Shown: positions 25,711 to 29,494 of the stretch, piece by piece
How positions within the stretch are numbered: the stretch's first letter is position 1
How the letters are laid out: the number at the start of each line of letters is the position of its first letter
Assembly (NCBI GenBank): GCA_902590775.1
Contig: CACIYC010000007.1
Coordinates: 1 to 63,243, forward strand
Length of the DNA stretch: 63,243 nt
Direction: 5' to 3'
DNA from: an uncultured Prochlorococcus sp.
Lineage (GTDB): Bacteria; Cyanobacteriota; Cyanobacteriia; PCC-6307; Cyanobiaceae
Position numbers and translations under genes: made by a program
Notes under the pieces: model-generated
Seen by the model: the letters and a program-made list of their open reading frames with translations, nothing else
Told to the model about the DNA's origin: nothing
The model's database searches: none

Positions 25711-25765
25711 TGAAATCTACTTAGACGTACGATTGAAATCTACTTAGACGTACGATTGAAATCTA
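25711..25765 (-). repeat. 23-bp tandem repeat starting at the psaK stop codon
   Basis: Two identical 23-bp units occupy 25743-25765 and 25720-25742 and a 9-base partial third copy 25711-25719. Read on the minus strand, each unit begins TAGATTTCAATCG, so the TAG that ends psaK is the first codon of unit one. Each unit also carries the palindrome CGTACG. The arrangement looks like a recent slippage duplication in the psaK 3' untranslated region. No function is known. Confidence 0.85.
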
Positions 25766-26023
25766 GAGAACTCCTCTTGAAGCTAAACCTAGAATTGATC
25801 CAATGCCAAGTATATGTCCCAAACAATTAGCTGCTACAACTGATGCATGACTCATACCACCAAAGAACTTAGAGTTAGGAATCTCAAAGCCTTCATTAGG
25901 CTGGGCAATATTTGCTCTTGCTATTGCATAAGCAAGGACATTGCACAGGATCATGATAAGCGCACACTTGGGTGACCAATGAAATGTAGCAGGAGCTGCT
26001 GAGGCCAATAGAGATGTAATCAT
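25763..26023 (-). CDS. psaK: Photosystem I subunit PsaK
   Basis: This is a two-helix peripheral subunit of photosystem I (subunit X) at the edge of the complex, connecting to antenna. The 86-residue product read from the ATG at 26023 has the typical TFHWSPKCALIMILCNVLAYAIAR first helix (quoted in pieces) and the GFEIPNSKFFGGMSHASVVAANC loop. A GHILGIGSILGLASRG end completes the family pattern. The frame is open 15 codons further up to 26068 with the charged start MCFIKENNKVAFH, which does not match the family, so the shorter start is chosen. It is last in a minus-strand gene run. Confidence 0.92.
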   Translation of the reverse strand: MITSLLASAAPATFHWSPKCALIMILCNVLAYAIARANIAQPNEGFEIPNSKFFGGMSHASVVAANCLGHILGIGSILGLASRGVL

Positions 26024-26099
26024 TAACACATGAAAAGCAACCTTATTATTCTCCTTGATAAAGCACATTTGACCACAAAGTTTTACTACCTCTTAAAGG

Positions 26100-26414
26100 T
26101 TATTTACTTGAATTTTGGATTAATCCTGCAAAACCGAGTGCTACCAGTCCATCACTAATTGCTAAAAAAGCTTCAGCTGATCCATGTAAGGCATCAATAT
26201 CTGTCAATTCTTTTCCATAATTTACTTGTGCAAATATAGAGAAAGCAATTGTAATGCCAACAAAAAGGAGTGTCATTCTAAATCCCCACAAAGATATCTT
26301 TGGCATTTCATTGGTTTTGTTAGCCCAATAGAGAAAAAATAAAAATGGAAATAATGAGAATACAAAAATTGGACCAGGATCTAAGTCCGCCAAATAAAGA
26401 AGAAAATTATTCAT
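26100..26414 (-). CDS. DUF3593 family membrane protein
   Basis: This 104-residue integral membrane protein has three hydrophobic stretches near residues 14-30, 45-62 and 83-99, matching the DUF3593 family shared by cyanobacteria and chloroplasts. Typical parts are DLDPGPIFVFSLFPFLFFLYWANK (in pieces) and LHGSAEAFLAISDGLVALGFAG. Function is unknown. Its ATG overlaps the preceding DUF2499 stop by 4 bp, so the two are coupled. The pair occurs together in many cyanobacteria, as I recall. Confidence 0.8.
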   Translation of the reverse strand: MNNFLLYLADLDPGPIFVFSLFPFLFFLYWANKTNEMPKISLWGFRMTLLFVGITIAFSIFAQVNYGKELTDIDALHGSAEAFLAISDGLVALGFAGLIQNSSK

Positions 26415-26725
26415 GTATTTTGTGCCATGCTTCTTTCTCTAAGAACAATTTGCCAGGAAGCTATAGCTAAGGCTGTATTCCCTATGAAAGTTAAGAGAGC
26501 TTGTAAATAAACTAAACCATAAAGACTTGCTGCATTATCAAAGATATGCCATGTTATTGCCGCCATAGCACTAGCCAAGTTAGGTAGCATTGCATATGCA
26601 AGTAATTTGTATGGTTTATACTTTGTATTTTTATTAGATAAAATGGAAATTAGCAGAATTGCTAGCGTCCATTCAAATAATGTAAGTATATGAATAAACC
26701 AAGTAGGGGTAGAAAGGCTATGCAT
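26411..26725 (-). CDS. DUF2499 family membrane protein
   Basis: This 104-residue membrane protein has the DUF2499 pattern. It opens STPTWFIHILTLFEWTLAILL, has a YAMLPNLASAMAAITWHIFDN core, and ends with a QALLTFIGNTALAIASWQI helix. Three to four membrane segments are likely. A histidine in each of the first and middle segments is conserved-looking. It is coupled to DUF3593 by a 4-bp overlap and to the upstream peroxiredoxin by a 1-bp stop/start overlap, so the three are almost certainly one transcript. Function unknown. Confidence 0.82.
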   Translation of the reverse strand: MHSLSTPTWFIHILTLFEWTLAILLISILSNKNTKYKPYKLLAYAMLPNLASAMAAITWHIFDNAASLYGLVYLQALLTFIGNTALAIASWQIVLRERSMAQNT

Positions 26726-27282
26726 TAGTTTATGTTGAATTTTTCAACGATTCTTAATACTTCTTTTGGATGTCTAGATGGAATAACTTCTAACCATTGA
26801 TATTTTATGAAACCATCTGGGTTTATTAAATATGTATTTCTAATTGAATTCTCCCCATTCCATGATTTATACTTTCTACTTACCACTCCATCTTTATCTG
26901 ATAAAAGTGAAAAATCTATTTCTTCATCATTGCAAAATTTTTCATGACTAGATAATGTATCATTACTTATGCCAACAACTTTAGTATTGACTTTATTAAA
27001 GTCACTTATTAGTTTTTGAAAGCCCCTTGCTTCTAATGTACATCCATACGTACCATCTTTAGGATAAAAGTATAATACTAACCAGGATTTATTAAAGTCA
27101 TTAAGATTCCAATTGATCTTTTCTTTATTAATTGGATTATAACCAGTCAAGTCAAAATTAGGAGCTTTTTGATTAATTAGTGATAGATTTTTGGCAAAAG
27201 TAGCTAATGGACCTAGAAGAATTATGCTAAGTATAATTACTATAATAGTTAATTTATATTTATAAGATTTCATCGTTTTCAT
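26725..27282 (-). CDS. Exported PrxQ/BCP-type peroxiredoxin
   Basis: This thiol peroxidase carries an N-terminal signal peptide or anchor (about residues 8-30, ending TFAKN), so it should reach the thylakoid lumen or periplasm. The peroxidatic site is FYPKDGTYGCTLEARGF with Cys81. In PrxQ enzymes a resolving cysteine normally lies five residues later, but that position is Arg86. The segment also reads TYGC rather than TPGC. A further cysteine occurs at residue 117 (HEKFCNDEE). It lies 22 bp after rpmB and overlaps the DUF2499 gene by one base. Confidence 0.88.
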   Translation of the reverse strand: MKTMKSYKYKLTIIVIILSIILLGPLATFAKNLSLINQKAPNFDLTGYNPINKEKINWNLNDFNKSWLVLYFYPKDGTYGCTLEARGFQKLISDFNKVNTKVVGISNDTLSSHEKFCNDEEIDFSLLSDKDGVVSRKYKSWNGENSIRNTYLINPDGFIKYQWLEVIPSRHPKEVLRIVEKFNIN

Positions 27283-27304: not shown

Positions 27305-27541
27305 TTAAATTTTTCTTAAATCTAATCCTTTAGATTTTGCGTATGTATCTAAACCTTTTTTTTGTATTGTTTTAAGAGTTCGAGTAGTAACTCTTACTGA
27401 TATCCACCTTTTACCTTGTTCCCACCATAAACGTCGTTTTTGAAGATTTGGTTGCTGAAGTTTTTTAGTTCGTATATGAGAATGGCTAACTGCCATACCA
27501 TTATTAGCTTTTGTACCAGACAGATCACATACCCTAGACAT
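27305..27541 (-). CDS. rpmB: Ribosomal protein L28
   Basis: This is a 78-residue ribosomal large-subunit protein. The ATG at 27541 gives [19 protein letters not shown], the standard L28 N-terminus; the frame extends 12 codons upstream without similarity. A basic middle ([20 protein letters not shown]) and a [19 protein letters not shown] end complete the family pattern. It is on the same strand as htpG, 48 bp downstream of it, and precedes the peroxiredoxin gene by 22 bp. Confidence 0.95.
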
Positions 27542-27589
27542 TTTTATTGCTTTTAAAATGCATCTATATTCTAGCAAAGTAAGTGAAGA

Positions 27590-29494
27590 TCAAGTTATTC
27601 TTGATAGAAGGTTGCCCATAAGCGTTGAATTCCTTTGTTGAAAATCTGCCATTTCTTTTGGTTCTAGACCACCTATTCCTAGGCATGCCATTTGATATAA
27701 GTGCAGAGAGATATCTTTTAAAAGCTGTTCATTTTGTGTTTTACCTTCAGATCCAACGATAATTGAACTTTCTTTTAATTTAGATAAACCTAAAACAATA
27801 GGATGATTTTTATTAATTAAAAGGACGTGATTCTCTGGCATTCCAGGAAGTTTTTGTTCCATAAGAGCTCCAATATCATTTATTCTTCTCATTTGCTCAG
27901 GAAGTAGAATCATTGCAGGGATAGTATTATTACCTTTTAGTGCTCTTATTTGAATAGTAATCTTATCGTTATTTAAAGAATCTTTTATAAGTTTCCTCAA
28001 TGATTCTGATTGATTCTCTCCATCAATATCTTTTATTTCAGGAGAATCATCTTTCATTTTTTCATCTATTTCAGAGTCAACTCTTTGAAATGTTAAATTC
28101 TCATTTTTAGATTCTATCCAAGGTATAAACTGTGAATCTATAACAGTATCTGCCATGATTATCTCTTCCCCTTCGTTTATCCATAAATTTAGAGGGTTAG
28201 ACTGAGAAGTCTCATCTGTACAATAAATAATTCTTTTTTCTTTTTCTGAATTCAGTCGATCTAGGTAGTCATTTATTGTGGAGAAATTATTCTCGTTGTA
28301 TTTTATTATTTTATCTTCTTTTGTGAAAACATCCTTTTTAATTGTTCTAAATATAATTAATTCTTCTACTTGATCTGCAAATTTCTCATCTTCCATCGCA
28401 CCTATTTTTACAAATGGTGCTATTGACTCCCAAATTTGCGCATAAAAGTTAGAGTCACTCTTTTTTATCTTGTTAAGCTTATCTGCTATCTTTTTTGAAA
28501 TAAAATTACTTATTGAACGTACCTTTCTATTTGACTGTAAGGCGCTTCTGCTTACATTTAGAGGAATATCGGTTGAATCTATTACACCGCGAAGAGGAAG
28601 AAGATATCTAGGCACAACTTCTTTTATTGAATCACTAACAAAAACTTGATTGCAAAAAAGTTTTATCTCTCCATTTTCCCAGTCTGCCCTGCCACCCATT
28701 TTTGGGAAAAATAATATTCCCTGAAGGTTATAAGGGTAATCTGTATTTAAATGTATCCAAAACAATGGATCACCCTGAAAGGGATATAAGTATCTATATA
28801 GTTCAATATAATCTTCATCTTTCATTTCTTGTGTATTTCTTCTCCATGGAGGGTTGCGTTTGTTTATTGTTTCCCCTGAAAGCTGAACATCTACGGGCAT
28901 AAAATCACAATATTTCTTGATTAATGTTTTAATTCTGCTAGGTTCTAAGTATTCTATTTCCTCTTCTAGTAAGTAAAGTATAATATCTGTTCCTGGTTTA
29001 TCTCTATTAGTTTCTTCGAGACTAAATTTTGGGGAGCCATCACATTTCCAATTGACTGCCTTGCTATCTTTAATTGCAGATCTAGTTATAATTTCTACGT
29101 TACTTGCAACCATAAAACTTGAATAAAAACCTAATCCAAAATGGCCAATAATTCCTTCTTGATTATGTTCATATTTTTTTAAAAACTCTTCAGCACTTGA
29201 AAATGCTACTTGATTTATATACTTTTTAACTTCTTCAGAAGTCATTCCTATACCATTGTCTGAAATAGTTAATGACTTTTCTTCTCTATTTAAAACTATA
29301 TTAATAATAGGTTCTTCTTCAGTGGATTCGCAATCACCAGCAATTGATGCCATCCTTCTTTTGCTTATTGCATCTACACCATTACTAACTAGTTCTCTAA
29401 GAAATATTTCATGATCTGAATATACAGCTTTCTTGATTATTGGAAAAATATTTTCTGTATGTATTTGAATTTGTCCTTCTTCAATCGTTTTCAT
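27590..29494 (-). CDS. htpG: Chaperone HtpG (Hsp90)
   Basis: This is a dimeric ATP-dependent chaperone. The GHKL ATP-binding N-terminal domain shows ELVSNGVDAISKRR (about residues 34-47), DNGIGMTSEEVKKYI and GHFGLGFYSSFMVAS. The middle domain has the DSTDIPLNVSRSALQSN segment. The 634-residue length is typical. Cyanobacterial HtpG is linked to heat and light stress and to tetrapyrrole regulation through HemE; that is family knowledge. No promoter element such as CIRCE was seen upstream. Confidence 0.96.
   Translation of the reverse strand: MKTIEEGQIQIHTENIFPIIKKAVYSDHEIFLRELVSNGVDAISKRRMASIAGDCESTEEEPIINIVLNREEKSLTISDNGIGMTSEEVKKYINQVAFSSAEEFLKKYEHNQEGIIGHFGLGFYSSFMVASNVEIITRSAIKDSKAVNWKCDGSPKFSLEETNRDKPGTDIILYLLEEEIEYLEPSRIKTLIKKYCDFMPVDVQLSGETINKRNPPWRRNTQEMKDEDYIELYRYLYPFQGDPLFWIHLNTDYPYNLQGILFFPKMGGRADWENGEIKLFCNQVFVSDSIKEVVPRYLLPLRGVIDSTDIPLNVSRSALQSNRKVRSISNFISKKIADKLNKIKKSDSNFYAQIWESIAPFVKIGAMEDEKFADQVEELIIFRTIKKDVFTKEDKIIKYNENNFSTINDYLDRLNSEKEKRIIYCTDETSQSNPLNLWINEGEEIIMADTVIDSQFIPWIESKNENLTFQRVDSEIDEKMKDDSPEIKDIDGENQSESLRKLIKDSLNNDKITIQIRALKGNNTIPAMILLPEQMRRINDIGALMEQKLPGMPENHVLLINKNHPIVLGLSKLKESSIIVGSEGKTQNEQLLKDISLHLYQMACLGIGGLEPKEMADFQQRNSTLMGNLLSRIT

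Follow-up and report, generated by a model that had tools for sequence, protein, structure and literature searches.

An exported PrxQ/BCP-type peroxiredoxin of Prochlorococcus with a probable resolving cysteine in helix alpha3

We propose that the peroxiredoxin gene (prx) described here encodes an exported atypical 2-Cys PrxQ/BCP protein whose resolving cysteine would lie in helix alpha3, that is, in the layout of the Xanthomonas and Xylella PrxQ proteins and of the cyanobacterial class PRX BCP-B. Based on the comparisons outlined below, we put the probability of this reading at roughly 0.9, and the resolving role very probably falls to Cys117. The window, by which we mean the whole stretch of 63,243 nucleotides that was analysed, contains the gene and its relevant codons at the following positions.

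26725..27282, minus strand: PrxQ/BCP-B-type peroxiredoxin, 185 aa (open reading frame; Pfam AhpC-TSA, 1.1e-33; in sequence, it lies nearest to the solved PrxQ structures of Xanthomonas and Xylella)
27193..27282, minus strand: Sec-type leader, codons 1-30, with a computed hydrophobic core and probable cleavage after ATFA (residue 30)
27040..27042, minus strand: codon of the peroxidatic Cys81, in PxxxTxxC; invariant in 97/97 aligned loci
27025..27027, minus strand: codon of Arg86, the +5 site that holds the resolving Cys in PrxQ-A; R, K, H, Q, N or S in relatives, C in 0/97
26932..26934, minus strand: codon of Cys117, the putative resolving Cys, in a helix taken as alpha3 (helix 80-90 of the model); invariant in 97/97 and aligned with Cys84 of Xanthomonas PrxQ

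The reading frame opens with ATG and encodes 185 residues, and its product combines an AhpC-TSA domain, matched above the Pfam cut-off, with a complete PxxxTxxC peroxidatic motif (P74-x3-T78-x2-C81), the two features by which a peroxiredoxin of the AhpC/TSA type is recognized. The score against the NCBIfam model for thioredoxin-dependent thiol peroxidase (NF006960) is 76.1 bits, below the curated cut-off of 140. Cysteines occur at 81 and 117 only, and residue 86 is Arg. An earlier sequence-only reading of this DNA had called the product a PrxQ-like peroxiredoxin with Arg instead of Cys at position 86; the second point is plain from the sequence, and the first is borne out by the Pfam match and by the solved structures that the protein most resembles.

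That reading had further described the protein as lacking the usual resolving cysteine. To place this pattern among relatives, the prx protein was searched against 151 genomes of the same GTDB family, all of which returned a match at E <= 0.001, paralogues included. The matches fall into two sets, a close one (E of 3.7e-31 or better, 99 genomes) and a far one (3.8e-20 or weaker); the alignment was built from 97 close loci in 96 genomes, one of which has two loci, without the partial hits of G125, G098 and G144. In all 97 loci, Cys81 and Cys117 are both present and always 36 residues apart, and Phe116 is likewise invariant. Position 86 is R in 66 loci, K in 21, H in 5, Q in 3, N in 1 and S in 1, and thus never the +5 cysteine that defines PrxQ-A, on which ground we reject a recent loss of that residue. 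Named cyanobacterial contigs yielded no relative when scanned with the single prx protein as the query; scanned with the alignment (A1), they yielded 585, of which the best 80 were taken. Both cysteines are present in 79 of these 80 loci, the 80th reading X at 117, and Cys at +5 is found in none of the best 80, which according to their record titles extend to Nostoc, Microcystis, Gloeomargaritales and other cyanobacteria; the named-contig and family counts are not independent, because some genomes occur in both sets. The cysteine comparison across orthologues that the sequence-only reading had suggested therefore finds Cys81 and Cys117 fixed in every readable orthologue checked. It is correct that there is no Cys at +5, but the resolver does not appear to be missing.

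Structural comparison points the same way. The best sequence matches in the PDB are to PrxQ of Xanthomonas campestris (5iox, 5iiz and 3gkk, 2.9e-21 to 3e-21) and of Xylella fastidiosa (3ixr, 8.1e-21), and eight of the top nine hits are named bacterioferritin comigratory protein, the other being an AhpC/TSA entry (5enu); PrxQ/BCP is the best match among solved peroxiredoxins. Residue 65 aligns to Xanthomonas residue 32, and the alignment runs without a gap to 117, placing Cys81 on Cys48 and Cys117 on Cys84. The PDB titles include C48S and C84S mutants of the Xanthomonas protein, and Cys84, located in helix alpha3, has reportedly been shown to be the resolving cysteine; the Xylella protein is reportedly the subject of a "PrxQbeta" paper. 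An AlphaFold model of the mature product, made from 41 sequences and numbered with Lys31 as residue 1 (mean pLDDT, 95.1), places Cys81 close to where helix 49-60 begins and Cys117 inside helix 80-90 (helix spans in mature numbering), so that the second cysteine lies in a helix 36 residues after the peroxidatic one (CP), as in PrxQ/BCP proteins that resolve from alpha3. The model aligns with 3ixr at a Z of 24.6 and an rmsd of 1.6 over 149 residues (VIA-align), but chains of the 1-Cys AhpE and the 2-Cys Prx3 score within about 1.5 of that Z, and because they score almost as high, the fold alone cannot separate mechanism types. The Xanthomonas and Xylella proteins (5iox, 3gkk and 3ixr) thus share the fold and both cysteine positions (48 and 84 in Xanthomonas numbering) with the prx product; they differ from it in being about 30% identical and in lacking an exported leader in the aligned chains, which start with the domain itself.

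There is also published precedent within the cyanobacteria. The accessible part of a survey of 37 cyanobacterial genomes divides BCP proteins into classes A and B and describes PRX BCP-B as encoded by one gene in each of the 37, Prochlorococcus strains among them (PMC3514251). In its Table 2, the CP motif of BCP-B, WVVLYFYPQDFTPGCTLEA, spans 75-93, and a second Cys stands at 125 (PMC3514251); by arithmetic, the Cys of the motif, its 15th letter, falls at 89, and 125 - 89 = 36. As far as that part of the survey describes it, BCP-B resembles the prx product in its type of CP motif (YFYPxDxTxGCTLEA), in its N-terminal extension (CP at 75-93) and in the second Cys at +36, with the prx product being a divergent member; neither export nor structure is taken up in that part. 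A separate account, again in its accessible part, puts about 38 residues between the two cysteines of Deinococcus BCPs (PMC8945050). PrxQ-A, or BCP of the Escherichia coli type, shares the subfamily fold and the CP motif with the prx product but has its resolving Cys at +5 and is leaderless; the second PrxQ of the window's own genome (L002, G000:C2) is an example, in which +5 is Cys and +36 is Ile, the mirror-image pattern. The prx product is, in total, an unremarkable example of a cyanobacterial type that has been described before, and the Cys117-type layout was already known. The cysteine pattern had been offered as an oddity of this protein, a view that is not supported, given its fixation in the orthologues checked and its tabulation for BCP-B. 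The missing +5 Cys does not mark a lost function; it is constant in an exported PrxQ type that is widespread in cyanobacteria and has precedents among solved structures, and a false lead is thereby removed.

The same reading had assigned the protein to the lumen or periplasm on the strength of a signal segment, and the leader supports export. A Lys-rich stretch is followed by a hydrophobic core (mean Kyte-Doolittle value of 3.45 over 12 residues) and then by GPLATFA/KN, plausibly a signal-peptidase site. In the accessible part of a proximity-labelling study, bcp A0109 (homologue sll0221), which we infer to be orthologous to the prx product, is enriched with the lumenal bait PsbU-APEX2 (PMC7880944). 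Given how long and how hydrophobic the core is, the leader might alternatively stay uncleaved and anchor the protein by an N-terminal helix on the lumenal or periplasmic face instead of releasing it; we consider this unlikely, since the core gives way to a short A-x-A-like site, and many orthologue leaders terminate in AxA-like sites.

The route of export varies among relatives. The window's leader does not contain the twin-arginine expected of a Tat substrate; by a crude pattern, which scored the twin-arginine of L192 as absent and met a truncated leader in L149, the motif occurs in 70 of 97 family leaders (L005-L101) and in 38 of 80 named leaders (L115-L194, the best 80 of 585 relatives). 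Leader type is clustered on a quick tree of 175 rows, with at least 16 changes against 53.8 in shuffles, 5 of them forced by well-supported branches, and leaders without twin-arginine are concentrated in Prochlorococcus on this tree, in which many forks are poorly supported and long branches meet. The leader of the exported peroxiredoxin looks Tat-type in most other cyanobacteria checked and Sec-type in most Prochlorococcus. The Tat system was not lost, because tatC is kept in 143 of 151 family genomes, the window's own included. We speculate, quite tentatively and at less than even odds, that the Prochlorococcus lineage switched PrxQ-B export from Tat to Sec while keeping tatC, in which case the protein would fold and go through its first disulfide chemistry only after leaving the cytosol, and TxlA/CcdA alone would reduce it.

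With regard to that reductant, the window's own genome (67% complete) encodes thioredoxin, a CcdA/DsbD-TM protein and, as named from sequence, a TxlA/HCF164-like protein with WCEVC after a hydrophobic stretch and an NTR-thioredoxin fusion. Because the prx product appears to be exported, its most likely reductant, judging from gene content, is the membrane-anchored TxlA/HCF164-like thioredoxin fed through CcdA. The presence of these genes makes an electron chain from Trx through CcdA and TxlA to PrxQ possible.

The neighbourhood of prx had been read as a sign of oxidant defence near photosystem I. The genes concerned are as follows.

25763..26068, minus strand: psaK (NCBIfam TIGR03049, 7.7e-36, above cut-off)
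26100..26414, minus strand: DUF3593 protein, 104 aa (Pfam PF12159, 3.4e-31)
26411..26725, minus strand: DUF2499 protein, 104 aa (Pfam PF10693, 1.4e-30)
27305..27577, minus strand: rpmB (50S L28), the conserved upstream neighbour, found with prx in 92/97 loci (Pfam PF00830, 3e-21); its true start probably lies downstream of the listed TTG
27590..29494, minus strand: htpG (Hsp90), upstream of prx (Pfam PF00183, 8.4e-54)

The domain matches confirm DUF2499, DUF3593 and psaK downstream of prx. These genes lie head to tail; the stop of prx overlaps the start of DUF2499 by one base, and DUF2499 and DUF3593 have four bases in common, coordinates that suit cotranscription in this genome. The idea of a photosystem I-associated defence protein functionally coupled to psaK has in its favour this arrangement and the 20 of 97 loci in which DUF2499 directly follows prx. 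However, within the fetched stretch of 1.5-2 kb per side around the 97 family loci, the constant neighbour is rpmB (92), against 35 for DUF2499 and 28 for psaK. The gap was read in three of the 15 loci in which DUF2499 is present but not directly after prx (L069, L036 and L066, from larger-genome relatives), and in each the two genes are kept apart by an ORF of 353-364 aa on the opposite strand; the one typed, in L069, is a polysaccharide pyruvyl transferase. Moreover, DUF2499 occurs in 11 of 12 searched genomes without a close prx hit, and in these 11 loci DUF2499-DUF3593-psaK persists with a close prx beside DUF2499 in none. The neighbour counts and the prx-less loci together indicate that cotranscription with psaK is of local occurrence and says little about function, and we regard a functional link to photosystem I as very unlikely. 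A promoter scan gave 19 sites against 20.3 in shuffles, no excess. Among the 10 papers listed of 1,116 that matched either term, none contained DUF2499, and no paper joining DUF2499 with PrxQ was found, which is weak evidence of absence. In a 99% complete genome of the same genus (G065, L104), the order is htpG-rpmB-DUF2499-DUF3593-psaK, with prx absent between rpmB and DUF2499; the enzyme is therefore dispensable in this lineage.

As for catalysis, we posit that Cys81 would attack peroxide and form a sulfenic acid, that the active-site and alpha3 helices would then unfold locally, that Cys117 of the same chain would attack to give a Cys81-Cys117 disulfide and that a thioredoxin-like protein would reduce it. 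Cys117 had been suggested before as an alternative resolver, and its conservation and its alignment with Xanthomonas Cys84 favour that idea; together with the BCP-B survey, they make a 2-Cys protein with its resolver at 117 much likelier than a 1-Cys one, although the conserved Cys117 could be kept for some other reason. The 1-Cys possibility raised at the same time, in which an external thiol directly reduces the Cys81 sulfenic acid and Cys117 is incidental, has in its favour the lack of Cys at +5 in the prx product and all 97 family loci, the existence of true 1-Cys BCPs, for example, in Burkholderia cenocepacia (PMC8945050, accessible part), and 6 of 28 readable weak-hit PrxQ-like loci with Cys at neither +5 nor +36, but it is scarcely credible for this protein, and we reject it, on the invariance of Cys117 (97/97; 79/80 named loci, the other reading X) and of Phe116, on the Xanthomonas alignment and on the Cys81-x35-Cys117 spacing fixed in orthologues and tabulated for BCP-B.

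Those weak-hit loci served as a test against the resolver reading: 30 loci were taken from 18 genomes of the class in which the best hit was weak, 28 of them readable by script. Cys is found at +5 in 22 of the 28, at neither +5 nor +36 in 6 and at +36 in none, a pattern from which it follows that most are leaderless paralogues. The other two were read by eye: L218, a contig-end fragment, keeps the F-C that is typical of BCP-B, and the GCIKEAC of L214 places a Cys at +5. Some near-complete cyanobacterial genomes (family f23 genus g81 and others) give weak PrxQ-A-like matches only, and several weak-hit genomes may lack BCP-B, against the one-per-genome statement that the accessible part of the survey makes for all 37 (PMC3514251). 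Four leaderless PrxQ-like loci with Cys at neither +5 nor +36 (L201, L202, L206 and L208) are better 1-Cys candidates than the prx product.
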